A DNA stretch of 64,000 bases, taken from NCBI RefSeq assembly GCF_032842945.2, contig NZ_CP146606.1, positions 3,352,501 through 3,416,500 of the forward strand, read 5' to 3'. This document shows positions 5,713 through 55,458 of the stretch, in pieces. The notes beneath the pieces were generated by a model that was not told the DNA's origin, searched no databases, and was given only the letters and a program-made list of their open reading frames with translations. The number at the start of each line of letters is the position of its first letter. The first letter of the stretch is position 1. A program made the translations under genes and the position numbers. Source of the stretch: Roseovarius sp. W115 (lineage in GTDB: Bacteria; Pseudomonadota; Alphaproteobacteria; Rhodobacterales; Rhodobacteraceae).

Positions 5713-5752
5713 TTCTTTGTCTTGTTGGTGAAAACTGTGGGCCCAAAAGTAG

Positions 5753-5785
5753 AGAGGTCGGCCTGCTTTTCGCTGGCCGACCTCT
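5753..5785. repeat. Perfect 11-bp inverted repeat
   Basis: AGAGGTCGGCC and GGCCGACCTCT are separated by 11 bases. There is no T tract on the plus strand, so it is not an obvious terminator in that direction. It could terminate minus-strand transcripts or be a protein site. The rest of 5786-6128 shows no convincing gene; the only open frames are short and lack ribosome sites. Confidence 0.55.
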
Positions 5786-6128
5786 GCCCCACCCAAGAGC
5801 TGGTTGTCGAATTCCGCTCTCGACACGATCTGCTATGCGACTAGAAGGGACCAACCTGCATCATGCGCGCTAACGGATCGTTAGGTATCTGAAAGGATAG
5901 ATAGCATGATTCTCTGCGACTGCACGGTTTTGGTGAATTGTTCTCAAAAACCGGCAAATCCTCGCTCAAATTGCTTAATATTCGCGAATTTAAGGCCGTA
6001 AACAGCCAAAATCACCCGCCTTTGAGGGCTGAAAATTATTGATTTTAAAAGGGTTTTGCCAAATTTCCTGCGTTGTGTCGGTGCGGTCGCACGTGAAAGT
6101 CACGGTCAGGCCCGAAGAAAGCACATCT

Positions 6129-6156
6129 TTGCAAACCCTCTGGCATGGCTTATATT
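6129..6156 (+). promoter_or_regulatory. Sigma-70-type promoter of the tmRNA gene
   Basis: A TTGCAA -35 box (6129-6134) and a TATATT -10 box (6151-6156) are separated by 16 bases. The expected start, near 6163-6165, falls just upstream of the acceptor piece of the permuted tmRNA. Confidence 0.6.
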
Positions 6157-6164
6157 CCATTTGT

Positions 6165-6472
6165 CCTTCGGGACTATGGACATAAACGCGCTCGTAATAA
6201 GCGGATCGGACCCGGGGGCGGTACCCGGCGACTCCACCAAAATTCCTTCGTTTGGGGATCATGGGGTCGAAACAGGATCGACGAACGTCTAAAGGGGTTA
6301 GCTTTGTCCCGGTGAGTTACCACCGTTATCGGTACACCTAAGCTAGTTGCAAACGACAACAAAGCTCCGGTTGCTCTCGCTGCGTAAGCAGTGCGAAAAG
6401 CCGAAATCTAAGCCCTAGCCTCTAGCAAGGTTAGGCGGGGTTCGCAGGCACCTGGCAACAGAAGCCTGCACT
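6165..6472 (+). ncRNA. ssrA: Transfer-messenger RNA, circularly permuted two-piece type
   Basis: tmRNA rescues stalled ribosomes and appends a degradation tag. The tRNA-like halves occur in swapped order. First comes the acceptor half with a T stem CCGGG/CCCGG, the acceptor strand CGACTCC at 6229-6235 and ACCA at 6236-6239. A short internal spacer (6240-6262) follows. Then comes the coding half opening with GGGGTCG at 6263-6269, which pairs with CGACTCC over all seven positions. The tag frame at 6349-6384 encodes ANDNKAPVALAA and ends in TAA at 6385-6387. Pseudoknot-like structure continues to about 6470. Precursor processing into two RNAs is known for alphaproteobacteria; the outer ends here are approximate. 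Confidence 0.93.
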
Positions 6473-6523
6473 TTCATTTTACCGCGAATTATGTGCCGGC
6501 GGGGTTTGCCACGGCTTTTGTCC

Positions 6524-6563
6524 GGCGGGGTGGAACCCCGCCCAAGGGCGCTTGACCGCCCTT
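6524..6563. repeat. Two adjacent GC-rich hairpins upstream of chrB
   Basis: The first hairpin pairs GGCGGGGT with ACCCCGCC around a GGA loop (6524-6542). The second pairs AAGGGCG with CGCCCTT (6544-6563). They lie between the tmRNA and chrB and have no T tract. They may separate the two transcripts or form part of the chrB leader. A further near-palindrome (GCGTTTGC...GCAAAACGC, about 6644-6665) sits just before the chrB ribosome site. Confidence 0.45.
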
Positions 6564-6689
6564 CGCCTCTCAGCCATCATTGCACCAAGGGGCCATTCTG
6601 CGACTGCCCCGTGAGGCTTTGGCCCAAAGTCGCATCCACTGAAACGCGTTTGCTTGCGCAAAACGCTTGCACCAGAGGATGCTTTTGCA

Positions 6690-7505
6690 ATGCCTGCACC
6701 GAATGCAATTACTGTTTCCCAACTCAACCGCCTGATTGGCACAGCTGACTGCCCGGATATCATTGATGTCTGTATCCAAGAGGATTTTGACCAAGACCCC
6801 TATCTTATCCCCGGATCGCGGCGGCATCCGCATACCGATATCACGGGAATGATCGAAACGCTGAGAACACCGCGCGCAATTGTCGTTTGCCAAAAGGGGC
6901 TGAAGCTCAGTCAGGGCGTTGCGGCGTGGCTGCGCAGTGAAGGTATCCAGGCAGAGTATCTGCAAGGGGGGATGTATAGTTGGCGCGAGACCAAGGACGC
7001 CTTGCGAGTGCCAGCAAGCGCCCTGCCCGAACCCACGGGTCACCAGACGCTCTGGGTCACGCGGCACCGGCCCAAGATTGACCGCATTGCCTGTCCCTGG
7101 CTTATTCGCCGATTCGTTGATCGGGGGGCGCGGTTTCTCTTTGTCTCGCCCGACGATGTTGAGGCGGTGGCTGAGAAGTTCAACGCCGTGCCTTTTGACA
7201 TCGAAGGCGTGTTCTGGTCGCATCGTGGCGACGCATGCACTTTTGATGCCATGCTGGAGGAATTCAAACTGACCTCCCCGGCCCTGTCTCGCATGGCAGA
7301 TGTCATTCGCGCCGCCGACACAAACAGAAACGCAGACCACCCCGCCGCCGCTGGCCTTCTGGCTGTGTCTGTTGGTCTCTCGCGCCAGTTTCGAGAGGAT
7401 CACGCCCAGCTTGAGGCGGGCATGACGCTCTATGATGCCCTGTACCGCTGGGCACGAGATGGGTATGAGGAAACCCATGATTGGCCGAGCAGCCGGGGCG
7501 CATGA
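6690..7505 (+). CDS. chrB: Chromate resistance protein ChrB with rhodanese-like N-terminus
   Basis: The protein has 271 residues. The N-terminal half looks like a rhodanese fold, with a possible catalytic loop VVCQKGLKLSQG and a following GGMYSWRE. The C-terminal half is the ChrB domain, starting at LWVTRHRPKIDRIACPWLIRRF and including CTFDAMLEEF. ChrB proteins in other proteobacteria help chromate resistance and, in some, sense chromate to control the operon. The ATG at 6690 has AGAGGA about 11 bases upstream and is preferred over the ATG at 6654. The stop codon overlaps the chrA start, so translation is probably coupled. Confidence 0.85.
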   Translation: MPAPNAITVSQLNRLIGTADCPDIIDVCIQEDFDQDPYLIPGSRRHPHTDITGMIETLRTPRAIVVCQKGLKLSQGVAAWLRSEGIQAEYLQGGMYSWRETKDALRVPASALPEPTGHQTLWVTRHRPKIDRIACPWLIRRFVDRGARFLFVSPDDVEAVAEKFNAVPFDIEGVFWSHRGDACTFDAMLEEFKLTSPALSRMADVIRAADTNRNADHPAAAGLLAVSVGLSRQFREDHAQLEAGMTLYDALYRWARDGYEETHDWPSSRGA

Positions 7506-12839: not shown

Positions 12840-14074
12840 ACAGCCACGCTCGTGTAGCGCGAAGCTGGTGTTTCAATGCGACTTGGCGATGGCTGTCGGT
12901 CTGCAAACCTTGCACCTAAACTGTGCGGCCCGGCGGTGATCTGGAAATAGTCGTAGTCGCCGGGACGGTCAAAAGCGCAGAGATACTGAAAATGCAGCCG
13001 GAAAAACCGCCAGCGTAGCGCGCGCCAGCGCTCGGGACTCAGCGTTTGCGTGAACGCAGCGGAGATTACCAAGGGCCAGCGTTTGCCATCGGGTGCTACG
13101 CCCGACACACTGACCGGATCGCAAAGGGCAAAGGCGCAGCCGTCTCCGGGTGCTGTCACGTCGACCCAGCTTAGTTCCTTCCGCTTGCTGAGAAAGGCCA
13201 GATCGGCCCGTAATCGATGCGCCTCGGGCAAAAAAGACACCATTGGCACCACCTGCCCCAATGTCAGAAATGACAGGGCCGGGCCGGTTTCCGGAACGCC
13301 TTTGGTGCGCACCACATCGGCCAGAATGGACACCCCCAAATGCGCACCCGAGGAATGACCCACCACAAGCACCTCATCAACATCACTTTTCAAAGCTTTG
13401 ACGACCTCTTCCACGAACTCCGCCATCCGCGCCTCAAGCTCCGGCGGATTGGCCCCACTGGATTGCGCCGAATAGGCGTAGTCCAGCATCAGATAATAGG
13501 CAAAGAATTTGCCATCCTGCGCTTTGAACCATTTCAAGATGCCGACAAAGACCACAACACCTGCGATGCCTGAGGCCGCGTCCCCAAACTGTCCTAACCA
13601 CGGAACCAGATAGGCTTTGCCCAACCAGATCGTGGCAGCACCAGCGATAACAGACAAGATGAGCTGCACCAGAAGAAACCCAACGGGATAAAGTGCGGCA
13701 ATCACCGGCCCCTTGCGCAGTCGCATGAGCCGAAAGAGAGCGCCAGAGGCAATATATATCCAAGCCGTCCGCAGTAGCACGAAATAGGTCCCTCCAATCC
13801 CGCGCTCCATGCTGTCTTGCACAATGTCGGACCATGTCAGAACGGTGAAATCGGTTTCGACCGTCTGACCTTCAATTGTAGCATCGATATGCCAGCCATA
13901 GCGCGCTGCCCCTTCGGTTTGGGGTTTTAGCGCGATATAGTATCCAGACACCTCTGCCTGCGCCGCACTTTCCTTGCGATACAGCTCACGGTACCGCCGG
14001 GGCGGAAACGGGTCATACCCAGGAATGTAGAACACGCGGCGCGTGCGGATTTGCGGGGTGGGTTGACTGCTCAT
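12836..14074 (-). CDS. Membrane-associated alpha/beta-hydrolase-like protein
   Basis: This 412-residue protein has an unusual plan. An N-terminal soluble part (1-95) opens with RRVFYIPGYDPFPPRRYRELY, like the first strand and oxyanion region of a serine hydrolase. Hydrophobic segments follow at about 97-115, 124-150 and 165-183. Then comes the nucleophile elbow VLVVGHSSGAHLGVS, with the probable serine at 241. A possible acid/His region follows in the remaining 170 residues. The fold is split by membrane helices, suggesting an inner-membrane lipase or esterase. The gene directly precedes the P450 gene with a 4-base overlap, so the two may act on the same lipid-like substrate. The function is not established. 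Confidence 0.7.
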   Translation of the reverse strand: MSSQPTPQIRTRRVFYIPGYDPFPPRRYRELYRKESAAQAEVSGYYIALKPQTEGAARYGWHIDATIEGQTVETDFTVLTWSDIVQDSMERGIGGTYFVLLRTAWIYIASGALFRLMRLRKGPVIAALYPVGFLLVQLILSVIAGAATIWLGKAYLVPWLGQFGDAASGIAGVVVFVGILKWFKAQDGKFFAYYLMLDYAYSAQSSGANPPELEARMAEFVEEVVKALKSDVDEVLVVGHSSGAHLGVSILADVVRTKGVPETGPALSFLTLGQVVPMVSFLPEAHRLRADLAFLSKRKELSWVDVTAPGDGCAFALCDPVSVSGVAPDGKRWPLVISAAFTQTLSPERWRALRWRFFRLHFQYLCAFDRPGDYDYFQITAGPHSLGARFADRQPSPSRIETPASRYTSVAV

Positions 14075-14128
14075 TCCGGACCTCTGTTGCGAGGCAGGTT
14101 AGCGCAACTTGTGCATCAGCGGTAGGGT

Positions 14129-14881
14129 TTAGCCGACGTAAGCTAATGCAGGGAAAACTTCGAGCAACCAATAGGAAAACGCCGAAAAACCACCGGTGAG
14201 CATCAAAAGACCGATGGTCCAGAGCAAGAGCCCCATGATTTTCTCAATTTGCTCCATATGGCGCTTCATCCAGGACATCAGCCCACCCAGCTTCGGCAAG
14301 AAAATCGCGAACAGCAGGAAAGGCACGCCAAGGCCAATGGCATAGACACCCAAAAGGAAGGTGCCGCGTGTCACGGAGGCCTCAGAGGCGGCCAAAGACA
14401 GGATCGCGCCCAGCTGCGGCCCGATGCACGGGGTCCAGCCAAATGCAAAGGCGAGACCCAAAATATAGGCCCCGGAAGACGATCCGCCCTGATCCCCCAC
14501 ATCAAGGCGTGCCTCGCGGTCGAGGATCTTGATACGGTAGATACCGATGAAATGCGCCCCGAAACCCATTACAATAATGCCAGCCAAGACGTTGAAATAG
14601 CTTTGATATTGCAAAAAGGCACGGCCTGCAGCGGATGCCGCGAAGCCAAGGAACAAAAAGACCGTTGAAAGCCCCAGAACAAAGAAAAGCGCCGGGACAA
14701 CTGCTTTGTTCCGCGCTTGGGACTGCTCATTCAGATCCGTCACCGACACGCCGCTCATATAGGCCAGATAAGGTGGCACGATGGGCAATACGCAAGGGCT
14801 GAGGAAGGAAAATACCCCCGCCACCAAAGCGACCATCATGGCGGGCAACAGAGCCGCGTCTATGATTTCGATCCCGAACAT
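14129..14881 (-). CDS. ccdA: CcdA/DsbD-like thiol-disulfide transmembrane protein
   Basis: This 250-residue inner-membrane protein belongs to the CcdA family, which passes electrons from cytoplasmic thioredoxin to periplasmic thiol proteins, mainly for cytochrome c maturation. Six hydrophobic segments are visible. The two redox cysteines are in FSFLSPCVLPIVPPYLAYM (helix 1) and FAFGWTPCIGPQLGAIL (helix 4). Divergent to it lies tusA. No cytochrome c maturation genes are nearby, so the acceptor protein is not known. Confidence 0.92.
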   Translation of the reverse strand: MFGIEIIDAALLPAMMVALVAGVFSFLSPCVLPIVPPYLAYMSGVSVTDLNEQSQARNKAVVPALFFVLGLSTVFLFLGFAASAAGRAFLQYQSYFNVLAGIIVMGFGAHFIGIYRIKILDREARLDVGDQGGSSSGAYILGLAFAFGWTPCIGPQLGAILSLAASEASVTRGTFLLGVYAIGLGVPFLLFAIFLPKLGGLMSWMKRHMEQIEKIMGLLLWTIGLLMLTGGFSAFSYWLLEVFPALAYVG

Positions 14882-14964
14882 GGTCCCTACCTAGTAGAAT
14901 TCCCTTGTAACGTCACCCGGCTAAAAGTCACATCTCTGTGGACAGGTCGTGACCAAGGACATAA

Positions 14965-15204
14965 GTGCACATTATGAGTTCGGAAGCGACAATAGATGCC
15001 CGAGGGCTGTTATGTCCTTTGCCTGTGCTGAAACTGCGCAAGCGTATCAAATCGTTGAATATTGGCGACACGGCCTGCCTTTTGGCGGATGATCCGGCGG
15101 CGGTTGTCGATGTGCCGCATTTCTGTGCCGAAGCAGGCCACGAATTGGTTGAGATCACCGAGGCACAGGGCCATCAGGCCTATCTCGTGCGCAAAGCGGT
15201 CTAA
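14965..15204 (+). CDS. tusA: TusA-family sulfur carrier protein
   Basis: This protein of 79 residues belongs to the TusA/SirA family, which carries persulfide sulfur on a conserved cysteine for tRNA thiolation and other pathways. The family motif IDARGLLCPLPVLKLRKR contains the active cysteine. The GTG at 14965 has AAGGA five bases upstream. The in-frame ATG at 14974 is an alternative but sits 14 bases from that site. A bidirectional terminator follows. Confidence 0.88.
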   Translation: MHIMSSEATIDARGLLCPLPVLKLRKRIKSLNIGDTACLLADDPAAVVDVPHFCAEAGHELVEITEAQGHQAYLVRKAV

Positions 15205-15221
15205 TATTGCGCCTAAATGCA

Positions 15222-15250
15222 AAAACAGCGCCTCAAAGAGACGCTGTTTT
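15222..15250. terminator. Bidirectional terminator between tusA and rne
   Basis: AAAACAGCG and CGCTGTTTT form a 9-bp stem around an 11-base segment. The stem itself supplies the A and T tracts for both directions, fitting the convergent arrangement of tusA and rne. Confidence 0.8.
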
Positions 15251-15271
15251 CAACTCTATGGCCGTCCGGGA

Positions 15272-17905
15272 CTAGCCGACTGACCACCACCCCTTGCGCT
15301 TGGGCTTGGCACTTTCTTCTGCTGCAACAGGCTCCGGGGCTGTCTCAGCCACTGGTTCTGGGGCTGGCTCAGCCTTAGGCTTGCGCGTGCGGGTGCGTTT
15401 CTTGGGCGCTTCCGGCTCCGGTTCAGCCTCTGTCGCATCTTGTACTTCAGTCGCCTCAGCCTCGGCATCCGCCTTCTTCTTGCGCGTGCGTGGCTTGCGC
15501 TTGGGCTTTTCGGGTTCCGCGTCAGGCTCCGCTTTGGCTTCTTCTACCTCTGGTTTTGCCTCCTCAGACGCAGGCGCGCTTTCGGTGTCTTCGCTGTCTT
15601 TCTTCTTGCGAGACCGGGATCGCGGCTTGCGCTTGGGCTTTTCCTCGGGCTGCGCATCGGTTTCGGCGTCAGGCGGAGTTTCAGGCGCAGAGGCCTCACC
15701 GCCCTCTTCGGCCTGGTCCTCGGAATTTTCACCATTCTCTTCGGTGGTATTCGCGTCTTCACCCTGGTTGTTGTTCTTGTTGCGCGAACGGCGGCGGCGA
15801 CGGCGACGGCGCTTCTTGGGGCGCTCTTCTGCATCAGGATCCGTCTCTACGGACTCGACAGGAGTCTCTTCTTCCTCTTCGGGAATATCCAGATCATCAA
15901 GCAGCGCGCTGCCTGCCGACACAACCGTCTCGGCGGCTTTCACCACCCGTGTTGCGGTTTTAAACTTCTCGAGGCTGAAATCGGGGCTGATCAATGCAGG
16001 ATCACCCTCAATGCGAACCGAAAGACCATAGGCCGCCTCGATATGCGCCACGCGTTCGCGTTTCTGGTTCATCAGGAAGTTGGCAATCCCCACCGGGCAC
16101 TTCACCAACACCTCGCGAGAGCGTTTGCGGGTGGCCTCTTCTTCAATCTGGCGCAGGATGCTGAGGGCAAGGTTGTCATCCGACCGGATCAACCCTGTGC
16201 CATGACAGGACGGGCATGGCTGCGTCGTCGCCTCAATCATACCGGGGCGCAGGCGCTGACGGCTCATCTCCATGAGGCCAAAGCCGGAAATCCGCCCCAC
16301 CTGAATGCGTGCGCGGTCGGTCTTGAGCCGGTCCTTCATGCGCTTTTCAACAGCGGAGTTGTTCTTGCGCTCATCCATGTCGATGAAGTCGATCACGATA
16401 AGGCCCGCAAGGTCACGCAGACGCAGCTGACGCGCCACCTCTTCAGCGGCTTCCAGGTTGGTCTTGAGCGCGGTCTCCTCGATCGAGCCTTCCTTCGTGG
16501 CCCGGCCCGAGTTCACATCGATGGCGACAAGTGCCTCAGTCACGCCGATCACGATATAACCGCCGGACTTAAGCTGCACCGTGGGATTGAACATGGCCGC
16601 CAGGTAGCTCTCGACCTGATAGCGCGCGAAGAGCGGCAGCGCCTCGTTGTAGTGTTTCACATTCTTGGCATGGGACGGCATGATCATCTTCATGAAGTCC
16701 TTGGCGATGCGATAGCCGCGCTCGCCTTCCACGTGGACCTCGTCGATATCACGGTTGTAAAGATCACGGATGGACCGCTTGATCAGGTCGCCTTCCTCGT
16801 AGATCTTCGCAGGTGCGATAGACTTCAGCGTCAGCTCGCGAATTTGCTCCCAAAGCCGCTGGAGGTACTCGTAGTCCCGCTTGATCTCGGCCTTGGTTCG
16901 CTTGGCCCCTGCCGTGCGCACAATCAGGCCCGCACCTTGCGGCACGTCGATTTCGTTGGCGATTTCCTTGAGCTTCTTGCGATCCGCGGCATTGGTGATC
17001 TTGCGGCTGATTCCACCGCCACGCGCGGTGTTAGGCATGAGAACGCAATACCGGCCAGCGAGCGAAAGATAGGTCGTGAGTGCAGCACCCTTGTTGCCGC
17101 GCTCTTCCTTAACAACCTGCACCAGAAGGATCTGGCGCACATTGATCACTTCCTGGATCTTATAGCGACGTGGGCGGGGTTTGCGCGGCGGACGGATGTC
17201 GTCCTGGTCATCTTCATCTGCCACTGACTCGATGGATTCGTCCTTTGAAGACGCATCCGAGCGCTTCTTGGACTTGTCTTCGTCGTCTGAGTCGTCGCCC
17301 ACGGTGTCCGAGGTCTCATCACCCTTGGATACGTCGTCTTCTACATCGTCAGGCTGGGTCTCCGCGGCCTCTTCCTGAGCATCTTCAGGTTCTTCAACGG
17401 GCGTCTCTGCGACGGTCTCCATTGGAGACAGCCCTTCCTCGCTGTCGCTGTCGGCCTCTGCGCCTTCGCCGTCTTCTAGGTCTATGGTCTCCATGCCAGA
17501 GACTTCACCTGTCACAACCGCATCGTCAGCCTCGGTCTTAGCCGCCTTTGATCGACGGCGGCGCGTGCGTTTGGGCTTTTTCTCTTCTTCCTCGTCGCGC
17601 GCCTTCATCGCTTCGGCATAGGCGCGCTCTTCTTCGATGAGCGCTTCGCGATCTGCGACCGGGATCTGATAGTAATCGGGATGAATTTCCGTAAAGGCGA
17701 GGAACCCATGGCGATTGCCGCCATAGTCCACAAACGCCGCCTGAAGCGACGGCTCGACCCGTGTTACTTTTGCAAGGTAGATGTTGCCAGCAAGCTGGCG
17801 TTTGTTCTCGGACTCAAAGTCAAATTCCTCAACCTTGTTTCCATCCACCACCACGACGCGGGTTTCCTCCGCGTGGGTGGCGTCGATAAGCATTTTCTTA
17901 GCCAT
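15272..17905 (-). CDS. rne: Ribonuclease E/G family endoribonuclease
   Basis: This 877-residue enzyme starts mRNA decay and matures rRNA and tRNA. The N-terminal S1 domain (GNIYLAKVTRVEPSLQAAFVDYGGNRHGFL) is interrupted by an acidic, Glu/Asp/Ser-rich insertion of about 150 residues (roughly 95-245). It then resumes at INVRQILLVQVVKEERGNKG. The catalytic aspartate regions read VAIDVNSGRAT and VIDFIDMDERKNNS. The Zn-link cysteines are in CPSCHGTG. The C-terminal 250 residues alternate acidic and Arg/Lys-rich stretches and should form the disordered degradosome scaffold. The start at 17905 (MAKKMLIDATHAEE) is preferred over an upstream ATG at 17920. Confidence 0.93.
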   Translation of the reverse strand: MAKKMLIDATHAEETRVVVVDGNKVEEFDFESENKRQLAGNIYLAKVTRVEPSLQAAFVDYGGNRHGFLAFTEIHPDYYQIPVADREALIEEERAYAEAMKARDEEEEKKPKRTRRRRSKAAKTEADDAVVTGEVSGMETIDLEDGEGAEADSDSEEGLSPMETVAETPVEEPEDAQEEAAETQPDDVEDDVSKGDETSDTVGDDSDDEDKSKKRSDASSKDESIESVADEDDQDDIRPPRKPRPRRYKIQEVINVRQILLVQVVKEERGNKGAALTTYLSLAGRYCVLMPNTARGGGISRKITNAADRKKLKEIANEIDVPQGAGLIVRTAGAKRTKAEIKRDYEYLQRLWEQIRELTLKSIAPAKIYEEGDLIKRSIRDLYNRDIDEVHVEGERGYRIAKDFMKMIMPSHAKNVKHYNEALPLFARYQVESYLAAMFNPTVQLKSGGYIVIGVTEALVAIDVNSGRATKEGSIEETALKTNLEAAEEVARQLRLRDLAGLIVIDFIDMDERKNNSAVEKRMKDRLKTDRARIQVGRISGFGLMEMSRQRLRPGMIEATTQPCPSCHGTGLIRSDDNLALSILRQIEEEATRKRSREVLVKCPVGIANFLMNQKRERVAHIEAAYGLSVRIEGDPALISPDFSLEKFKTATRVVKAAETVVSAGSALLDDLDIPEEEEETPVESVETDPDAEERPKKRRRRRRRRSRNKNNNQGEDANTTEENGENSEDQAEEGGEASAPETPPDAETDAQPEEKPKRKPRSRSRKKKDSEDTESAPASEEAKPEVEEAKAEPDAEPEKPKRKPRTRKKKADAEAEATEVQDATEAEPEPEAPKKRTRTRKPKAEPAPEPVAETAPEPVAAEESAKPKRKGWWSVG

Positions 17906-37044: not shown

Positions 37045-38349
37045 TCACCGCCCGATCACGATATCCGCCTGCAATCCACCCAGGGCCTTGCTTTGCCCAA
37101 GCCTCAGGGTTCCGCCATGGGCGCGTGCGATGTCCATGGCAATCGACAAACCGAGCCCGACACCGGTCCCAAGGTTCTGATTGCGCGCCTCGACCAGCCG
37201 GGCGAAGGGTTTGAGCGCCTCTTCGCGCCGGTCTTCGGGGATGCCGGGGCCATTATCCTCAATCCGGATGCGCAGGGCGCGATCTGTGATCTGAACTGAA
37301 ACTTCAGCTTTCTTGCCGTAACGTACTGCGTTGCCGACGAGGTTCTCCACCGCCCTTCGGATGCCGCCGGGGCGCAATGGCACATCACCTTCCCCTTCTG
37401 ATTGCGTCAATGTGACGTCCTTGCCTTCTCTCTGGAACCCGCCAACCACATCCAGAACCAACGCATGTGGATCAACTGGTTCCGGCTCACCCTCTTGCGC
37501 GCCCTGGGCGAAATCGAGGAATTCCGTGATCAGCCGTTCCATGTCTTTTACATCGCGTTCCAGCGGAGCGCGATTGGCCTCATCCATCATACTGAGCGCC
37601 AGCTTCAGCCGGGTAATGGGTGTGCGCAGATCGTGGCTGACACCCGAGAGCATCATCGTGCGCTGCTCAATCTGCCTCTCAATGCGCGCGCGCATGTCCA
37701 GAAACGCATGCCCCGCTGCGCGCACCTCGACAGACCCCGCCGGGCGATATTCGACATGCCGCCCTCGGCCAAAGGCCTCTGACGCGGAGGCCAGCCGCGT
37801 GATGGGACGCAGTTGATTGCGCAGGTAAAAATAGGCGATGACCGTCATGATGCCCGAAAACACCACCATATTGACCAAAAGCTGATGCGGATTGGAGGCT
37901 GACACCCGCCGACGGTCAAAGGTCAGGCGGAACGCATCTGTGCCGTTCTGGAAATAGAGATGCACTTCCTTTTCATTCGGCAATTCAATCGCTTTGACCG
38001 ATGGCAGCAATTGGGTGAATTCCCGGATCACAAACGCCCCGGTGAAGTCGTACCAGCGTCGGGTGTTCTGGAGCGGCAGTTCGGCCATGGCTACATCCTC
38101 TACCATGACCTGAAGCGTTGCTGCCACGCCACTTTGTGCAATCTCTTCTGCGGTTTCACCACTATTGAGCAGCACACGCACTTCGCGGCTTGCGGTGCGC
38201 GTCATCTGATTGGTCACACCCTCAAAATGGCGCTGGATGAAAATAACAGAGACCACAAGCATCAGTGTGATCACCGGCAAAAGCAGGATAAGAAAGGCCC
38301 GGCCATACAAGCTGCGGGGCATATAGCGTTTGAGCCAGCGGAACGACAT
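37045..38349 (-). CDS. EnvZ-like sensor histidine kinase
   Basis: This 434-residue membrane kinase has an N-terminal transmembrane helix (about 17-38), a periplasmic domain, and a second helix (about 158-178). A HAMP linker contains NQLRPITRLASASEAFGRGR. The dimerisation domain holds the H box SGVSHDLRTPITRLK. The ATPase domain shows NLVGNAVRYG, DNGPGIP and GVGLGLSIAMDIARAHGG. This layout fits the EnvZ/OmpR osmosensor group. The cognate response regulator is not adjacent within the window, since the MBL gene lies upstream in the opposite orientation. Confidence 0.88.
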   Translation of the reverse strand: MSFRWLKRYMPRSLYGRAFLILLLPVITLMLVVSVIFIQRHFEGVTNQMTRTASREVRVLLNSGETAEEIAQSGVAATLQVMVEDVAMAELPLQNTRRWYDFTGAFVIREFTQLLPSVKAIELPNEKEVHLYFQNGTDAFRLTFDRRRVSASNPHQLLVNMVVFSGIMTVIAYFYLRNQLRPITRLASASEAFGRGRHVEYRPAGSVEVRAAGHAFLDMRARIERQIEQRTMMLSGVSHDLRTPITRLKLALSMMDEANRAPLERDVKDMERLITEFLDFAQGAQEGEPEPVDPHALVLDVVGGFQREGKDVTLTQSEGEGDVPLRPGGIRRAVENLVGNAVRYGKKAEVSVQITDRALRIRIEDNGPGIPEDRREEALKPFARLVEARNQNLGTGVGLGLSIAMDIARAHGGTLRLGQSKALGGLQADIVIGR

Positions 38350-42209: not shown

Positions 42210-42545
42210 GGAAACCACATACCGTATCTTATTGGCATTGAACTAAATATACGTCCTCTTGCTCAAAAGCATCAGATCAAAAGCAATATGCTGATCTGCC
42301 AAATTTCAGCCAAACTTGGCGTTTACTTTCCTTAAACGCGCACGGTTTGCTCCAATGAACACAGCGCTTTTGTATGCTTGTTCTTGGTTGGCTCCGCGCA
42401 AGGAAACAACCAAATTCAGCCGTAAATGGTCAAAGATAAACTGACAGCCAAAGACGAAAGAGGAACGCGATCCAGACAAAACATCCCGCCTGACAGAAGA
42501 AAGCTGTCGCGCCCGGAGTATTTGGCTCGCGTAAAGATATCCACG
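42210..42545. other. Gene-free stretch upstream of the Hint protein
   Basis: No supported gene is seen. A longer frame reading into the Hint-domain gene from 42426 begins with a basic, non-conserved extension and is not favoured. A short dyad (CAGATC/GATCTG, about 42271-42297) is the only structure noticed. The stretch probably holds the gene's promoter. Confidence 0.4.
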
Positions 42546-43684
42546 ATGCCCGACATCAACGGAACCGGCAATGCTGACAATATCGACGTCACTGACGACG
42601 ATGGCACGCTGAACGGCACCCCCCAAGGTACGCCGATTGATGATATCACTGCGCGGGGTGGTGATGACACGATCTCCGTGACAGACAGCACTATCGCCAA
42701 TGATGTTCGCGGCAACGCCGGGTCTGATGATATCACAATATCAGGCAGCACTGTGTCCGGTCAGGTGAATAACGGGCGCAATGCCGACACGGTGAGCATT
42801 GAAGGTTCCGATGTTGGCAATGTCCGGCTTGGCAATGGCAATGATACGCTTGACTTTATCAGCACCACAGTCACCGGTGACATACGCGGCGGCGGTGGAA
42901 CAGATACGCTTAACCTACCCGTTGGAACGGTTGTAACCGATGCCACATTTGGCACCTTTACCGTTACAACGGGCGGCAGCTATAGCCTGTCAAACGGCAC
43001 CTTTACATTGCCGTCCGGGATCACGAACAGCTACAGGACTTTTGAGAACGGGACCGGTTTGCATGTTTCACAAGGGATACCTTGATTGAGACGGCAAAAG
43101 GACCGATTGCAATTCAAAAGCTAGCTCCAGGTGATGTTGTTCTCACATCAGGCGTTGGACCCAAGAAAATCCGTTGGATAGGTAGTCACGCCATTGGTTG
43201 CGCTGAATTGAGCGCGGAGCCAAAGCTGCGTCCGGTGCGTATCACCGCAGGGGCCCTGGGTCATGGGCTTCCCAAAAGAGACCTCCTTGTGTCGCGGCAG
43301 CACCGCATGCTCGTTCGTTCAAAAGTCGCCGCGCGTATGTTTGGAAATTCAGAAGTATTGCTGTCGGCCATAAGGTTGACAGACATGCCCGGAATTTACC
43401 TCGACGGCTCCGTTGAGAGCGTTGAGTATTTCCACCTTCTGTTTGATCGACATGAGGTCATCTTTGCTGAAGGCGCGCCGACTGAGAGCCTGTTCACAGG
43501 CCCGGAAGCGCTCAAATCTCTTGGTTCCGAGGCGAGAAACGAAATCTTGTCCATTCTGCCTGAAGTGGCGGACTTGAAGTACGCGCCTCAACCTGCCCGG
43601 TTCATTCCTCCAAGACACCGGCAAACACGGCTTGTCGAACGCCACATACGAAACGGGAAACCTCTTGTGCGTGCAGCGGGTTAA
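42546..43684 (+). pseudogene. Repeat protein with C-terminal Hint domain, frame disrupted
   Basis: The N-terminal part starts MPDINGTGNADNIDVTDDDG and has repetitive Gly/Asp/Asn-rich stretches (GGDDTISVTDSTI, GNGNDTLDFIST), like secreted calcium-binding repeat proteins. The C-terminal part is a Hint domain of the Hint_2 type, with LIETAKGPIAIQKLAPGDVV, KKIRWIGSH and VSRQHRMLV. The two parts are in different frames, split at 43058-43060 where three T occur. One extra T gives ENGTGFACFTRDTLIET, matching the usual Cys-Phe-Thr start of Hint_2 domains, and a continuous 379-residue protein. A real mutation is possible, but a sequence error is likelier. Confidence 0.78.
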
Positions 43685-43735
43685 TTTTCTTCGGAGAAAA
43701 AGAGGAGTTGCAGCACCTTTTGAATGCGTCCCTCC

Positions 43736-44401
43736 TCAGTAATTCCCAGCCACATATTTCGCAATCGCCGCCCCGCGGGAGTTCACTTCAAGCTTCTGAT
43801 AGATCGCTTTGAGGTAGTATTTCACCGTATTCTCGCTCAGCCCCAGCCGTGCGGAAATCTGGAAATTCGTCAGTCCATCGCCCAAAAGTCCGAGGATCTC
43901 ATGCTCGCGCCGCGACAGGGTATCCGCTGCCTCGGACGTCAGCTTACGCAAGATATCCGTAGGCACAATTGAATGACCCTCAATCAGCTTGCCCAAAATG
44001 CGTGGCAGGCTGGTGAGCACCTGCCCCATCATGCACACTGAATTGGCCCCGGACTTGATCGCTGTGCGGATAAACGCGAATTCACTGTCTTCAGCCACCA
44101 CGACAACCATCACCTCAGGATGATCTTTGCGCACCATATCAAGCACATGGGTCAAATCGCCATCCGCCAGACGCACGCCTAAGATCAGAATTGTCTTACC
44201 CCTGGTCCTCGACAACAACGCCTTGAGACTGGCTTTGTCGGTTGCGTATTCACCAAGCTCCACCTCGGCAATCTGCGCCACAAGAGATCCGATTCCCTGA
44301 CACACAATCAATTGCCTGTCCGCCACAATCACATGCGGAAGGTCATCTGTCGGAATGGGAGGGTTTTGAGCCAATGCCATCATATCCCGGGCAATTTTCA
44401 T
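43736..44401 (-). CDS. LuxR-family regulator with degenerate receiver
   Basis: The 221-residue protein has a receiver-like N-terminal domain and a LuxR/NarL helix-turn-helix at about 155-221 ([20 protein letters not shown], then [24 protein letters not shown] text). In the receiver, the phospho-acceptor Asp position in TILILGVRL is a Gly (residue 75), so phosphorylation there is not expected. It may be controlled by protein level or ligand instead. It is divergent from the serine-cycle gene sga, with a GGGTAG-N7-CTACCC dyad in between. It is the best candidate for binding that site. Confidence 0.85.
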
Positions 44402-44550
44402 ACCGAATCTCTCTTTCGACTATAGCCATCTGCCCAGTTTCAGATGGTATGCTTTACGACACTAGAGCATCAGAACCCGATGAAATCAAAAGAAAATTCC
44501 GCATACAAAAGTATGCCGACCGGGATTTCGCGGCTTTTTCTCACCCTTGC

Positions 44551-44569
44551 GGGTAGGAATTACCTACCC
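44551..44569. promoter_or_regulatory. Candidate operator GGGTAG-N7-CTACCC upstream of sga
   Basis: GGGTAG (44551-44556) and CTACCC (44564-44569) form a perfect dyad with a 7-base spacer. The centre is about 112 bases before the sga ATG. The same half-sites and spacer recur at 47304-47322 upstream of mtkA. Confidence 0.65.
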
Positions 44570-44671
44570 TTTGGGCAGTTTCGGGGGCTTTGACGAAAAA
44601 ACCCTCTTTTCAGACGAAAATTGCATGTTAGCTCCGTCGATCAACGAGACAGATTATGGAGCGCGACGACA

Positions 44672-45883
44672 ATGAACGGATTTCAGCACCTTTACATTCC
44701 TGGGCCCACCAATGTGCCTGAGCCTGTCCGTCAGGCGATGAACCTGCCCATGGAAGACATGCGCGCTCCGGACTTCCCGGATTTTGTCCAAGGTCTGCTG
44801 ATTGATCTCAAAAAGGCCTACCGCATGGAGACAGGTCGGATTTTCGTGTTTCCATCATCCGGCACCGGTGCTTGGGAATCCGCCATTCAGAATACGCTTC
44901 AGAAGGGTGACAAGGTTCTGATGTCGCGGTTTGGTCAGTTTTCTCTTCTCTGGGTCGATATGGCCGAGCGCCTGGGCCTTGATGTCGAAGTGATCGACGT
45001 CGAATGGGGCAAAGGTGTGCCGGTCGAAGACTACGCGACGCGTCTTGCTGCTGACAAAGAGCACAAGATCAAAGCCGTGTTTGCGACGCAAAACGAAACC
45101 GCCACAGGCGTGACGTCAGACATAGAAGGCGTGCGCAAGGCGCTTGATGCCGCTGACCACCCAGCGATGCTATTTGTTGATGGCGTTAGCTCCATCGCCT
45201 CAATTGAATTTGAGATGGACAAATGGGGCGTGGACCTCGCCGTCTCCGGCTCTCAGAAAGGCTTCATGCTGCCTGCAGGTCTTGGCATTCTTGGCGCCTC
45301 GAAAAAAGCGCTTGCTGCCAACAAGGCGCTTGAAAATGCCGGTATGGCGCGCTGCTATTTCAGCTTTGAAGATATGATCAAGCTGAACGATACCGGTTAT
45401 TTCCCTTACACCCCTGCGACCCAGCTGCTGCGCGGTCTGCGCTGTTCACTCGACATGATGCTGGAAACCGGCATGGAAAGCATCTGGGCGCGCCACAAGC
45501 GCTTGGCAGAAGGCGTTCGTGCCGCTGTCGACGCTTGGGATGGATGTGAATTGGTGGCACGCGGTCCCGACTGGCACTCGGATACCGTTTCGGCGATTTA
45601 CGCCCCTGAAGGTGTGGATGCACGCGACGTGATTTCGACCGCCTATTATAAATACCAGACCTCGCTGGGCACCGGTCTCAACAAACTGATGGGCAAAGCC
45701 TTCCGCATTGGGCATTTGGGGTCTCTCAACCCGGTCATGCTGTGCGGTGCGATTTCAGCGGCGGAAATGGCATTGGTTGACGCCGGTGCGAAAATTGAGC
45801 CAGGGTCCGGTGTGGCCGCGGCACAGGCCGAGTTCCGTGCAACCACACCCAATGTGAACGCGCCGGTCGTGAAAGCGGCCTGA
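44672..45883 (+). CDS. sga: Serine-glyoxylate aminotransferase (serine cycle)
   Basis: This PLP enzyme of 403 residues converts serine and glyoxylate to hydroxypyruvate and glycine in the serine cycle for C1 assimilation. The family start HLYIPGPTNVPEPVRQAM and the cofactor lysine K196 in VSGSQKGFMLPAGLG are clear. The next gene is a hydroxypyruvate-type reductase and malate thiokinase genes follow, which supports this role. An aspartate-glyoxylate aminotransferase (BhcA) of the hydroxyaspartate cycle is the main alternative, but no other bhc genes are present. The ATG at 44672 follows GGAG by ten bases; an upstream frame from 44621 is less likely. Confidence 0.85.
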   Translation: MNGFQHLYIPGPTNVPEPVRQAMNLPMEDMRAPDFPDFVQGLLIDLKKAYRMETGRIFVFPSSGTGAWESAIQNTLQKGDKVLMSRFGQFSLLWVDMAERLGLDVEVIDVEWGKGVPVEDYATRLAADKEHKIKAVFATQNETATGVTSDIEGVRKALDAADHPAMLFVDGVSSIASIEFEMDKWGVDLAVSGSQKGFMLPAGLGILGASKKALAANKALENAGMARCYFSFEDMIKLNDTGYFPYTPATQLLRGLRCSLDMMLETGMESIWARHKRLAEGVRAAVDAWDGCELVARGPDWHSDTVSAIYAPEGVDARDVISTAYYKYQTSLGTGLNKLMGKAFRIGHLGSLNPVMLCGAISAAEMALVDAGAKIEPGSGVAAAQAEFRATTPNVNAPVVKAA

Positions 45884-45898
45884 AGGACAGGAAGATAA

Positions 45899-46882
45899 AT
45901 GAAAATTTTGGTGACCAGGGCCTGGCCCAAGGCGGCAGAAGACCGTCTTGAGCAGGCCGGGCTTGGCGAAGTGACGCTGCGCAATCCCGACACGTCCATG
46001 AGCCATGAGGAGTGGATGGCTGCGGCAGAGACCTATGACGTGATCATGCCCACCGTCTCGGATAAAATTCCGGCGGAGTTTTACCCGGCCGCGAAAGGCA
46101 AGCTGAAGATCTTTGCCAACTACGGCGTAGGTTTCAATCACATTGATATCGACGCGGCGCACGCCAATGGCATTGCGGTCACCAACACGCCTGATGTGCT
46201 CACCGATTGCACGGCTGACTTGGCGATGGGCCTGATGTTTGCCGCCGCCCGCCGTATCGGCGAAGGTGAGCGTGAAACACGGGCTGGTGGTTGGGAAGGC
46301 TGGCGACCCACGCATATGATCGGCAAGAAGGTCACCGGGGCCACAATCGGCATCATCGGGTTTGGCCGCATCGGTCAGGCGATGGCGCGCCGGGCGCATA
46401 ACGGGTTTGGCATGCGCGTGGTGTTTCAGGATGCGTGGGACGTGCCAGACGACATCAAGGCGGCCAATGGCAATGCGGAACAATTGGGCTCAATGACAGA
46501 GGTTGCGGCGCAATCCGATTTCCTGTCCCTGCACTGCCCCGGTGGCGCAGATACCTACAAAATGATCAACGCCGATGTGTTCGGCGCTTTGAAACCCGGC
46601 GCGATCCTAGTGAATTCAGCGCGCGGCGATGTGGTGGATGAAGATGCGCTCTTTGATGCGCTTGATAGTGGTAAACTGTCTGCGGCGGGACTGGATGTGT
46701 ATCACAATGAACCTGCGCTTGATCCGCGGTTTCTGAAATACGACAACATCGTTCTGGCGCCGCATTTGGGAAGCGCCACAGACGGCACGCGAGAGGCAAT
46801 GGGCCATCGCGCCATCGACAATCTCGAAGCGTTCCTGAAAGGTGAGCATCCCGGGGATCTGGTAACGCCGGGCAAGGATTAA
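45899..46882 (+). CDS. hprA: Hydroxypyruvate/glyoxylate reductase (D-2-hydroxyacid dehydrogenase)
   Basis: This NAD(P)-dependent D-2-hydroxyacid dehydrogenase of 327 residues is expected to reduce hydroxypyruvate to glycerate. The nucleotide motif is GIIGFGRIGQAMARRA, and the catalytic regions are NSARGDVVDEDAL and the His loop VLAPHLGSAT. It starts 15 bases after the sga stop with an AGGA site, so the two should be one operon. In the serine cycle it follows directly after the Sga reaction. Confidence 0.88.
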   Translation: MKILVTRAWPKAAEDRLEQAGLGEVTLRNPDTSMSHEEWMAAAETYDVIMPTVSDKIPAEFYPAAKGKLKIFANYGVGFNHIDIDAAHANGIAVTNTPDVLTDCTADLAMGLMFAAARRIGEGERETRAGGWEGWRPTHMIGKKVTGATIGIIGFGRIGQAMARRAHNGFGMRVVFQDAWDVPDDIKAANGNAEQLGSMTEVAAQSDFLSLHCPGGADTYKMINADVFGALKPGAILVNSARGDVVDEDALFDALDSGKLSAAGLDVYHNEPALDPRFLKYDNIVLAPHLGSATDGTREAMGHRAIDNLEAFLKGEHPGDLVTPGKD

Positions 46883-46916
46883 CTCGGTCTTAACAAAAGA
46901 GATCAAGTATCGGGCC

Positions 46917-47144
46917 ATGACACAAAATGGCACGATTATGCCTGAACATTGGATGGCAGGCATCTTTGCTGCAAAAGCCGCGCGCGATGGAAGCGTGATC
47001 AGGCGGAGCGTACGAGATATCGAACGTTTTGTTGGTCGGACTACATTCCTGCGAGAGCTTGAGCGTCGCGGGTTTCAAGCGGCTGAGAATGCCGGCCAGC
47101 TAGTCATTTTTTGTAACCGCGAACCGATACGCCGCATTTTGTAG
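46917..47144 (+). CDS. Small conserved protein, paralogue of 11200-11430
   Basis: The product has 75 residues. The core IFAAKAARDGSVIRRSVRDI, ERFVGRTTFLRELERRGFQA and ENAGQLVIFCNRE aligns closely with the protein at 11200-11430. The function is unknown. It lies 34 bases behind hprA and before tandem palindromes, within the serine-cycle block. It may be co-transcribed with sga-hprA. A later in-frame ATG at 46938 is possible. Confidence 0.7.
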   Translation: MTQNGTIMPEHWMAGIFAAKAARDGSVIRRSVRDIERFVGRTTFLRELERRGFQAAENAGQLVIFCNREPIRRIL

Positions 47145-47165
47145 AAGCGTGTTTGCCGCAACGGA

Positions 47166-47212
47166 ATTGGAAAATTGCAATTTTCCAATGTGGAATTTTG
47201 CAAAATTCCACA
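47166..47212. repeat. Two perfect 24-base tandem palindromes
   Basis: The half-sites are ATTGGAAAATTG with CAATTTTCCAAT (47166-47189) and TGTGGAATTTTG with CAAAATTCCACA (47189-47212). Neither has a loop. They lie 21 bases after the stop of the small paralogous gene. They may form a terminator or a protein-binding array, and they resemble the set at 36945-37038. Confidence 0.8.
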
Positions 47213-47303
47213 TCCCTGTGAAACTGCATGTAGCCAAAACACTATGACTTTAATAAGAAAATCCACTCCTCCGCATCCCATTGCATCCAGAAACCCGTTC
47301 AAT

Positions 47304-47322
47304 GGGTAGCCCGCGCCTACCC
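47304..47322. promoter_or_regulatory. Candidate operator GGGTAG-N7-CTACCC upstream of mtkA
   Basis: GGGTAG (47304-47309) and CTACCC (47317-47322) match exactly the half-sites and 7-base spacer seen before sga; only the spacer bases differ. The centre is about 101 bases before the mtkA ATG. Confidence 0.65.
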
Positions 47323-47413
47323 GCGGTGCGCAATTTATTACCCGCAGGGACGTAGCTCTGCCAGCAGACATATTCCACATTGAAAGCATACTTCTCAAAG
47401 GAGGGTCCGTTTG

Positions 47414-48598
47414 ATGGATATCCACGAATACCAGGCCAAGAAACTGCTCAGCAAATTCGGTGTTAACATTCCGCGCGGGGGCATTGCCTACAGCCCGGAA
47501 CAGGCTGTTTATCGCTGCTCCGAGCTTTCGGGCGATTCTTGGGTGGTCAAAGCGCAAATCCACTCAGGTGCCCGCGGCAAAGCAGGCGGTGTGCGCATCT
47601 GCAAAAGCGAAGAAGAGATTTGGGATGCCGCGCAATGGATGCTCGGCCGCAAGCTGGTAACTCATCAAACCGGGCCTCAAGGCAAAATGGTCAGCCGCCT
47701 CTATATCGAGGAGGCCACGGATATTGCGCAGGAAATTTACCTGGGCTTCGTGATGGACCGCAAATTGGAGCGCGTGGTCGTGGTCGCCTCTGCCGAAGGT
47801 GGCATGGAGATTGAAGAGATTTCTGCCGAAGAGCCTGACTCGATCATACGGTCTGTCGTTGATCCGGCCGTTGGCATGCAGGCCTTTCAGGCACGTGAGA
47901 TTGCGTTCTCCCTTGGGTTGGAACCCCAACTCATCGCGCAGGCGAGCAAGACCATCATGGGCTGTTATCAGATGATGTCCGAAATGGACGCCAATATGGT
48001 TGAGATCAACCCACTGGTGGTAACATCCAGCAATGAGATTGTAGCGCTCGACGCCAAAGTGAGCTTTGACACCAATGCGCTCTACCGGCACCCCAAAATT
48101 TCCGAGCTGCGCGATAAAAGTCAGGAAGACCCACGCGAAACCTATGCCGGTGATCGCGGCCTGAACTACATCGGGCTCGAAGGTGAAATTGGTTGCATCG
48201 TGAATGGCGCAGGCTTGGCCATGGCGACGCTCGACATGATCAAGATGGCCGGTGGGGAACCTGCCAACTTCCTCGATGTGGGCGGCGGAGCGAGCCCTGA
48301 GCGGGTTCTGAAATCCTTCAAGGCGGTGCTCAATGATCCCAATGTTGAAGCCATCCTTGTGAACATCTTCGCGGGCATCAACCGCTGCGACTGGATTGCC
48401 GAGGGGGTGATCCTCGCGGTCAAGGAACTTGATCTCAAAATGCCTTTGGTGGTGCGCCTGTCGGGCACAAATGTTGAAGAAGGTCTCAAGCTGCTCGCAG
48501 AAAGTGGCCTGAACATTGAAACAGCGAATTCGTTGGCCGAGGCTGCAGACAAAGTCGTCACGGCATGGCGCGCAACTCAAATGGCGGAGGCAAGCTGA
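47414..48598 (+). CDS. mtkA: Malate-CoA ligase beta subunit (malate thiokinase)
   Basis: This ATP-grasp subunit of 394 residues, with MtkB, makes malyl-CoA from malate, CoA and ATP in the serine cycle. It shows the family features [38 protein letters not shown] and [20 protein letters not shown]. The neighbourhood with sga and hprA argues for malate thiokinase rather than succinyl-CoA synthetase SucC. The two families are close and SucC remains possible. AAGGAGG lies nine bases before the ATG at 47414. The stop overlaps the mtkB start. Confidence 0.82.
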
Positions 48599-49478
48599 TG
48601 GCTATTCTCATCAACAAAGACACCAAGGTTCTTGTCACCGGCATCACCGGCCGCATCGGAAGCTTTCACACCCAGGACATGATCAATCACGGCACCAATG
48701 TCGTGGGTGGCGTCACCCCCGGTAAGGGCGGCACCAAACACCTGGACCTGCCTGTGTTCAACACCGTCAAAGGCGCTGTGGCCGAAACCGGCGCCGATCT
48801 GGTGGTGAGCTTTGTACCCCTCCCTTTGCTGCCGATAGCATCATGGAAGCCGCGGATGCGGGTATCAAAACCTGTGTCTGCATCGCAGACGGTATCCCCG
48901 CACAGGACATGATCCACGTCAAACGCTACATGCGCCGCTACAAGGAAGAAAAGCGCATGCGCCTGATCGGTCCCAACTGTGCGGGCATCATTACTCCAGG
49001 CGAAGGCTTTGCCGGTCTGATGCCGCCGCATATCTACAAGCCTGGTCGCGTGGGCATCGTCGGACGCTCAGGCACGTTGGGATATGAGGCGGCCAGCCAG
49101 ATGAGTGAGCGCGGCATTGGCGTGTCGTCCTCCATCGGCATCGGCGGGGATCCGATTAATGGGTCAAGCTTCAAGGATATTCTGGAACTGTTCGAAGCCG
49201 ATCCTGACACAGATGCCGTGGTTCTGGTCGGTGAGATTGGCGGCCCTCAAGAAGCGGAGGCCGCCGAATACATCCGGGATCACATGAGCAAACCGGTCGC
49301 GGCCTATATTGCGGGTCTTTCGGCTCCCAAAGGACGGCGTATGGGCCACGCCGGCGCCATCGTGTCAGCCTTTGGCGAATCCGCACAAGAAAAAGTCGAC
49401 ATCCTGCAAGAGGCCGGTGTGACCATTGTCCCCACACCGTCCTCTTTCGGGGACGCCGTCGAAAAGATGGTGGCGTAA
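48598..49478 (+). pseudogene. mtkB: Malate-CoA ligase alpha subunit, frame disrupted
   Basis: The alpha subunit binds CoA and carries the phospho-histidine. The first frame gives [20 protein letters not shown] up to DLVVSFVP. The second frame continues from [19 protein letters not shown] to the end, including [26 protein letters not shown] and the active-site RRMGHAGAI. The break is at a run of four C (48817-48820). Five C would restore [15 protein letters not shown] and give 293 residues, the usual length. It is probably a sequencing undercall. RYMRRYKEEKRM and similar parts match malate thiokinase more than SucD. Confidence 0.85.
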
Positions 49479-54884: not shown

Positions 54885-54942
54885 CGCCGGTTCTGCTTGA
54901 CTGTGCTGGAAAAGCAAGGCGGGGCCGCGTAAAGCTTTGCCC

Positions 54943-55458
54943 ATGAGCAAAGCGATCATCGAAAAACCCGGCCTACTTGTGGCTTTGATCGCGGTGCAGC
55001 TTTTGTGCACCGCGTTCTTTTTGTGGGACGTGGTTGAGGATTTTCGCAGTGGTGCCTTTTTCGGACCAGCGCCGGTTTATGCCACAACAGAAGCGCTTGC
55101 CGCAACTAGTCTAGGACTGGCCGTTGTTGTGGAACTTCATATTCTGCGAGGCTTGATGAGACGGAAAGCCCAGTTGGAAACGCAAGTCTCTGTGGCGTCC
55201 GGCGCACTCAGCGACGTGATCTCAGCCCATTTTGACGCTTGGAACCTCACCCCCGCAGAGCGCGATGTCGCGCTCTTTGCTATCAAGGGATTTTCCATCG
55301 CTGAAACAGCAAAACTGCGCGGCGCAGCGGAAGGCACGGTGAAGTCTCAGTTGAACGCGGTTTATCGTAAGGCGGATGTGCAAGGTCGCGGGGCTTTGCT
55401 CGGGCTTTTGATCGATGACCTCGTCGCAGCGCCGCTAATCGGCGCGGCAAAAGGTTGA
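54943..55458 (+). CDS. Membrane-anchored LuxR-type HTH protein
   Basis: The 171-residue protein has two N-terminal membrane helices (about 11-30 and 48-68, including LLVALIAVQLLCTAFFLWDV). A linker and a C-terminal LuxR-type HTH follow (WNLTPAERDVALFAIKGFSI, then RGAAEGTVKSQLNAVYRKAD). Membrane-bound one-component regulators of this shape exist in Roseobacter genomes. The ATG at 54943 is used; a TTG six bases earlier is weaker. The target is unknown. Confidence 0.8.
   Translation: MSKAIIEKPGLLVALIAVQLLCTAFFLWDVVEDFRSGAFFGPAPVYATTEALAATSLGLAVVVELHILRGLMRRKAQLETQVSVASGALSDVISAHFDAWNLTPAERDVALFAIKGFSIAETAKLRGAAEGTVKSQLNAVYRKADVQGRGALLGLLIDDLVAAPLIGAAKG

Follow-up and report, generated by a model that had tools for sequence, protein, structure and literature searches.

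A conserved dyad before two serine-cycle units in Roseovarius, most likely read by an adjacent NarL-fold regulator

Introduction

Roseobacters turn over much of the one-carbon (C1) matter released from marine methylated compounds. Control of the serine cycle, one route by which such carbon is assimilated, has been described for Methylobacterium extorquens AM1, where the LysR-type regulator QscR governs serine-cycle genes and its DNA binding responds to formyl-tetrahydrofolate (formyl-H4F), NADP+, and acetyl-CoA (PMC3486813). Among the papers listed in searches of the openly licensed literature, none described a roseobacter regulator of these genes, which does not prove its absence from print.

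Here, we analyzed a stretch of 64,000 nucleotides (hereafter the window) of Roseovarius sp. W115, contig NZ_CP146606.1, positions 3,352,501 to 3,416,500. It contains two copies of an inverted repeat, the dyad GGGTAG-N7-CTACCC, one before sga (serine-glyoxylate aminotransferase) and one before mtkA (malate-CoA ligase subunit beta), as well as a gene for a LuxR/NarL-type regulator. A reading of this DNA made from its letters, hereafter the sequence-only reading, had proposed that the dyads mark a serine-cycle regulon controlled by this regulator. Pairs of a transcription factor and its operator are commonplace, whereas the particular regulon described here, and its distribution, look new.

Results

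The sequence-only reading had described two dyads with identical half-sites, a spacing of seven bases, and unrelated spacers, and both were found to be exact, with the spacers GAATTAC before sga and CCCGCGC before mtkA (Table 1). The first lies between sga and the regulator gene, which is indeed transcribed divergently from it, and the second lies between the hprA-like gene and mtkA. The distances first given, about 112 and 101 bases, fit when they are measured from the dyad center to the ATG codons of sga (44672) and mtkA (47414). The mechanically listed open reading frame (ORF) starts, 44621 and 47411, are TTG codons; for sga, whose longer listed ORF begins at the former, the start was chosen by comparison with relatives.

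Within the window only, the dyad with at most two mismatches has two matches, both exact, against 0.75 expected, and this test is weak, as 20 of 100 shuffles also reach two. In the genome of 3,717,200 bases, the same tolerance yields 36 sites: 2 exact, 1 with one mismatch, which lies within an ORF, and 33 with two, from which we estimate by scaling that about 0.06 exact sites would be expected genome-wide. The relaxed motif GGGTRG-N6/7-CYACCC matches just the two window dyads in this genome, and the dyad is thus not scattered elsewhere in it. A wider regulon in the same genome was rejected, as the relaxed motif gives no third site; at this stringency, the regulon is just two operons. A reversed-pattern control (199 versus 36 sites) was discarded as an unfair null, since genomes of this kind contain few TAG and CTA triplets.

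A search of 60 relatives with the regulator led to 30 loci, the window's own included, and the DNA adjoining the regulator carries the dyad with at most two changes in all 30; at one of these loci (L030), the regulator's neighbor is the mcl-mtkA side rather than sga. A second set comprised 57 loci, 50 of which hold both the sga start and the regulator, and GGGTRG-N6/7-CYACCC precedes sga in 49 of these. The dyad stands 100-115 bp from the start codon of sga (mean 105.5, standard deviation 2.9; 49 loci and the window), and 157-273 bp separate it from codon 28 of the regulator (standard deviation 31.5, n = 49). Because the distance is fixed to sga and variable to the regulator, the dyad seems to be placed by the sga promoter. 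The motif was found in none of 8800 shuffled copies of 44 non-redundant regions.

The second site was compared across 52 loci (49 of the second set, two further loci, L138 and L139, and the window), with only sga and hprA counted as neighbors. In 46 of them, mtkA is preceded by an mcl-like gene, the product of which was tested in one case (L069) and is an HpcH/HpaI-type lyase in Pfam, with NCBIfam matches below the cut-off; by context, it is a malyl-CoA lyase. A unit was taken as set apart when it starts at least 244 bp behind sga/hprA, or when neither gene is upstream in the locus. Every mcl-mtkAB or mtkAB unit set apart in this way (31/31) has a dyad with at most one change 92-198 bp before it, versus none of the 21 units that follow sga/hprA within 70 bp (two of these loci, L095 and L139, come from one genome). 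The comparison shows the second dyad following the predicted need for a separate promoter: it is present where the unit stands apart and absent where it is close. Thus, the dyad is kept before orthologous genes at both positions, as the proposal of the sequence-only reading requires.

In the window, the second dyad directly precedes mtkA, as the mcl of the relatives is missing from this genome, which has just a 48% identical paralog (C1:1113759); mcl is likewise missing in three relatives (G032, G008, and G006), with just the 48% paralog elsewhere. Locus L138 encodes a regulator 42% identical to that of the window with no adjoining sga, and an exact dyad with a 6-base spacer lies between this regulator and mcl-mtkAB. 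Spacer lengths are unequal between the two sites of one locus in 12 of the 23 loci that have both, and one regulator therefore seems to accept spacers of 6 and 7. At L069, hprA and mcl are separated by a gamma-glutamyltransferase gene (5699-7459), and it is mcl that the dyad accompanies; L071 has a gap of similar size.

The regulator is present in 49 of 60 genomes of the genus. Of these 49 genomes, 45 contain an exact dyad with a spacer of 6 or 7, versus none of the 11 genomes without the regulator, so the dyad and the LuxR gene co-occur, which the sequence-only reading had suggested checking. In 44 of the 49, the exact dyad is at the locus itself. In G033, a contig end truncates the regulator, and the exact match falls within an ORF of a different contig; the four genomes with no exact dyad (G004, G005, G064, and G080) have a one-change dyad at the locus. 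Among the 11 genomes without the regulator, mtkA-like matches do not exceed about 55% identity in eight, and the remaining three encode a divergent mtkA (61-67%). Of these three, G073 has sga, mcl, and mtkAB with no LuxR match and no dyad in the 7-kb stretch analyzed (L137), and G028 and G070 carry a second regulator branch, described below. In the family, the regulator was detected in 5 of 295 genomes (E up to 1e-25). Genes resembling sga occur in 154 of 290 family genomes, and the best 30 loci were examined. Each of the 4 loci with this regulator contains the dyad. Among 21 loci from other genera with no LuxR match, a tolerance of one change gives no dyad and a tolerance of two gives a single one. 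A distant LuxR gene is present at the other 5, and 4 of these have a two-change dyad.

To describe the anatomy of the control site, we used non-redundant sites, 44 before sga and 27 before mtk. As these were preselected for having the core, the constancy of the core in this set is uninformative. In the 44 sga sites, CACCC is found four bases before the core and GTTNGG-like bases are found after it. The 90 bp upstream of the core contain a 10-bp repeat, GYRTNC-N4-GYRTNC (named M2), in 38/44 sga and 16/27 mtk sites, versus 0/44 and 0/27 control stretches and about 0.1% of base shuffles. The M2 copy before sga was also scored as a minus-strand terminator-like stem, at chance level. In 21 of the 27 mtk sites, TACC and then AAAGT start 36 bp after the dyad; compared with most relatives, the corresponding TACCC of the window is shifted toward the dyad by 20 bp, or about two helical turns. 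A CGGG(C/G)RT block starts 44-45 bp after the dyad in 30 of the 44 sga sites. It should be noted that calling a block promoter-like is a reading of conservation, because sigma-70 scans found no promoter toward sga or mtkA in the window.

The C-terminus of the regulator matches the GerE (LuxR-type) helix-turn-helix (HTH) domain PF00196 (63.4 bits versus a cut-off of 23.5, E 1.4e-17), and the recognition region of this domain is almost invariant (18/19 aligned members). The N-terminus has a receiver fold according to AlphaFold2 (mean predicted local distance difference test score 84.3) and Foldseek (RcsB 5vxn, E 2e-13; also LiaR and NarL); Pfam Response_reg is absent from the matches listed for the protein. 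When aligned with ChrA, the phospho-acceptor Asp after strand 3 corresponds to G75, a glycine in 19/19 members, and the conserved Lys at the end of strand 5 corresponds to M125, also invariant in the 19; the acidic pocket residue D28 is kept. Because this receiver has neither the phospho-acceptor Asp nor the conserved Lys, a signal other than phosphorylation may be read, and the alignment leans somewhat toward such a phosphorylation-independent regulator. Two cysteines, C34 and C123, are invariant in the 19 members and are aligned in the 42-43% identical sequences of L095, L096, L100, and L101 (two proteins, each seen twice); they are not kept throughout the distant second branch.

This second branch is represented by the LuxR protein of locus L135, about 33% identical to the window regulator over the matched part. 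A scan of 290 family genomes found regulators of this type in 34, all from different genera, with identities of at least 62% in 31, and the names returned by the protein search include Ruegeria, Leisingera, Shimia, Tateyamaria, and Roseobacter. We aligned 26 loci, namely L135, L136, and 24 others (L148-L171). In 22 of the 24, the gene opposite the regulator encodes another aminotransferase, in 1 it is sga (L169), and in 1, a short locus (L157), it is neither. The best solved relatives of the aminotransferase of L150 are alanine- and serine-glyoxylate aminotransferases. On the regulator's side, mcl is present in 20/24 loci; mtkA is not in these 24 short loci and is present in L135, L136, L112, and L114.

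The control region of this branch begins with the convergent dyad CYACCC-N4-GGGTRG; the repeat GGTATAC-N4-GNATAC comes next, then the divergent dyad GGGTRG-N8-CYACCC, and last another TACCC. With at most two changes, the divergent dyad is found in 26/26 loci (10 of them unchanged, and 25 close to the aligned position) versus 3.4% of shuffles, and the convergent dyad is found in 24/26 (22 close to the aligned position) versus 3.0%. Under stricter patterns, these numbers are 15/26 and 11/26, and the M2-like repeat is found in 22/26. The spacer is thus 6 or 7 in Roseovarius and 8 in this wider sister branch. As the second branch keeps the plan, the half-site follows this class of regulator, even with a different aminotransferase. 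Opposite the LuxR gene of the 24 loci, a block TACCCAAAAGCAGGA...GTTGTG after the dyad is nearly unchanged over many genera and is perhaps the core promoter of the aminotransferase operon.

The search of this genome for serine-cycle genes covered those in Table 1 and mcl, and the window yielded sga, the hprA-like gene, mtkA, and an interrupted mtkB. Only mtkA is named by a score above its NCBIfam cut-off; the other names rest on Pfam, on context, and, for sga, on a solved relative (6pk1, E 4e-120). The name BhcA was considered for sga and not given (564 bits versus a cut-off of 650), and every NCBIfam match of the hprA-like protein is under its cut-off. Between two conserved stretches, mtkB is one base shorter than in 50/50 compared relatives and its frame is therefore interrupted, which is either a sequencing error or a recent pseudogene. 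Just past the regulator gene (42426-43684) lie a low-complexity ORF and then a Hint-domain ORF (Hint_2). Farther away (54937-55458), a small protein has a weak Sigma70_r4_2 match, and its ORF is flanked by two that resemble glyceraldehyde-3-phosphate dehydrogenases by eye.

Table 1 Features of the regulator-sga-mtk locus in the window
Feature	Position	Strand	Basis
NarL/LuxR-fold regulator, 221 aa, GerE HTH and receiver-like domain	43739..44401	-	Pfam GerE, AlphaFold2, Foldseek
M2 before sga, GCATAC-N4-GTATGC, 34 bp before dyad	44501..44516	+	38/44 sga promoters
Outer half-site CACCC, four bases before GGGTAG	44542..44546	+	Columns L-9 to L-5 conserved, 44 sga promoters
Operator dyad (putative) before sga, GGGTAG-N7-CTACCC	44551..44569	.	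Sequence and conservation in relatives
sga, serine-glyoxylate aminotransferase	44672..45883	+	Pfam Aminotran_5; solved relative 6pk1
hprA-like 2-hydroxyacid dehydrogenase (hydroxypyruvate reductase by context)	45899..46882	+	Pfam 2-Hacid_dh_C
M2 before mtkA, GCATCC-N4-GCATCC, 15 bp before dyad	47273..47288	+	16/27 mtk promoters
Operator dyad (putative) before mtkA, GGGTAG-N7-CTACCC	47304..47322	.	Sequence and conservation in relatives
Third half-site TACCC, window mtk	47339..47343	+	Read from sequence, offset 16
mtkA, malate-CoA ligase subunit beta	47414..48598	+	NCBIfam PRK14046, 692 bits versus cut-off 604
mtkB, malate-CoA ligase subunit alpha, frame interrupted	48598..49478	+	ORF list, Pfam, alignment with relatives

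Discussion

Conservation, the fixed distance to sga, presence or absence according to the placement of the mtk unit, and co-occurrence with the regulator are all seen when the sequences are compared. Together, they indicate that the dyads are probably the operators of a two-unit serine-cycle regulon, read most likely by the adjacent NarL-fold regulator, and the proposal of the sequence-only reading is, to that extent, supported. That the dyads function as operators is almost certain, and binding by the adjacent regulator, though putative, is very likely. We propose that dimers of the regulator would recognize GGGTRG half-sites by means of the GerE domain; GGGTRG-N6/7-CYACCC, the inner pair, would be the core, completed by the flanking half-sites and M2. 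In this way, the regulator would jointly activate sga-hprA and (mcl-)mtkAB under conditions that call for the serine cycle.

Several observations weigh against this explanation. One of the 50 loci with sga and the regulator (L075) has one change in the dyad core, and the counts cannot be taken as independent, since the genomes are related and some species appear in both locus sets. The 60 genus genomes also contain four exact matches away from the locus: L128 and L129 read as intergenic (an antisense ORF overlaps L129), one standing before a thrS-like gene and one between carboxylase-like and lactate dehydrogenase-like genes (names by eye), and L130 and L131 lie within ORFs. We treated them as chance, as each occurs once. 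The CGGG-type block common in sga promoters is not evident in the window's own sga site, and a sigma-70 consensus scan of the window gave no promoter toward sga or mtkA. A histidine-kinase gene (37045-38349; HAMP, HisKA, and HATPase_c) lies 5.4 kb from the regulator, and the ORF lists show no evident response-regulator ORF beside it; a kinase-regulator link is conceivable, but the missing Asp speaks against phosphotransfer. Near the regulator of L044, an ORF (14017-15318) encodes a protein whose start resembles that of this kinase. Finally, co-occurrence alone cannot name the reader of the site, because the regulator and the operons travel together in Roseovarius.

This last point also favors the possibility that the dyads are bound by a different, unlinked regulator and that the LuxR-type gene controls something else or only itself, as linkage that is nearly complete in the genus does not separate readers; in addition, M2 is conserved too, and another factor may act at the sga and mtk promoters. 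We nevertheless consider this improbable, as the dyad tracks LuxR genes and not sga in the family loci, reappears beside a different aminotransferase gene at loci with a related LuxR gene, and is retained at L138 together with the regulator and mcl-mtkAB without an adjacent sga. If the adjacent regulator is the reader, it could also repress both operons. Either sign of control fits the data, the gene is divergent, as for many repressors, and the window has no consensus promoter to fix the geometry; however, the core dyad appears to lie well upstream of the conserved promoter-like block, a place usual for activators. From this position, we favor activation, with a reserve that was slightly increased because the promoter scans came out empty, and regard repression as rather unlikely.

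Two readings without a DNA-binding protein fare worse. The dyads might act as hairpins of an RNA leader (attenuator or terminator), as inverted repeats of 6 bp are able to fold, each start codon follows its site by about 100 bp, and a terminator-like stem (47312-47330) overlapping the second dyad was scored, one of 2 in the region versus 0.8 in shuffles. No scored stem is the dyad itself, however; at the variable dyad position, the non-pairing A/C combination occurs in 6/44 sga sites, about as often as independence predicts; and Rfam gave no match up to E 1 (43500-47800). Lacking compensatory pairing and an Rfam match, the hairpin was rejected as very improbable. Chance, or a promoter segment duplicated by shared ancestry and without function, is less credible still: the two copies are 2.7 kb apart and the relatives share descent, but the half-sites are fixed while the spacers are unrelated and often differ in length, the presence of the second dyad follows promoter need, and the plan extends to the sister regulator branch.

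A broader and more tentative possibility is a module spread over the Rhodobacteraceae, made of NarL-fold regulators with degenerate receivers that sense without phosphorylation, composite operators, and spacers and aminotransferases specific to each branch. Such regulators might directly sense a C1 or glyoxylate-level metabolite or, in the Roseovarius branch, the thiol state through C34 and C123. The operator would combine divergent and convergent GGGTRG half-sites with the 10-bp repeat; branches would fix the half-site, change the spacer (6, 7, or 8), and swap the controlled aminotransferase, while mcl, and mtkAB where in view, would remain in the module.

With one candidate regulator and a defined operator, the two-unit regulon offers a direct way to test how roseobacters switch on C1 assimilation. 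Identifying the signal to which this receiver, lacking a phosphosite, responds would reveal what cells sense before committing carbon to the serine cycle, and the fixed half-site with its changing spacer offers a natural series for the co-change of regulator and site.

Control of sga may differ elsewhere. In another genus (L109, one of the 21 loci with no LuxR match), sga is likewise divergent from a regulator gene (2836-4158), but this one belongs to another protein family (ScfR type, with HTH, Peptidase_M78, and ScfRs domains), and the 400 bp before sga hold no dyad within two changes. Long ORFs divergent from sga were also seen in L102, L106, L111, L115, L117, L118, L120-L123, and L125-L127, and the DNA between sga and those ORFs in other genera is rich in TTTACA/TGTAAA, a sign of different control.

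Like QscR, the window regulator would act on serine-cycle operons. The two differ by protein family, which is the level of this comparison rather than that of the site: QscR is of LysR type, whereas the window regulator combines GerE with a receiver-like domain, and the LysR HTH and effector domains are absent from its Pfam matches. Its fold and its GerE DNA-binding domain are those of NarL/FixJ-type response regulators (ChrA 4yn8, spr1814 4zmr, VraR, NarL, and RcsB), from which it departs by G75 in place of the phospho-Asp and M125 in place of the Lys. NarL sites are heptamers with a consensus and a 7-2-7 arrangement. The TACCC core of the sites described here resembles this heptamer, but the core half-sites diverge, with 6-8 bp between them, which is the opposite of the NarL arrangement.

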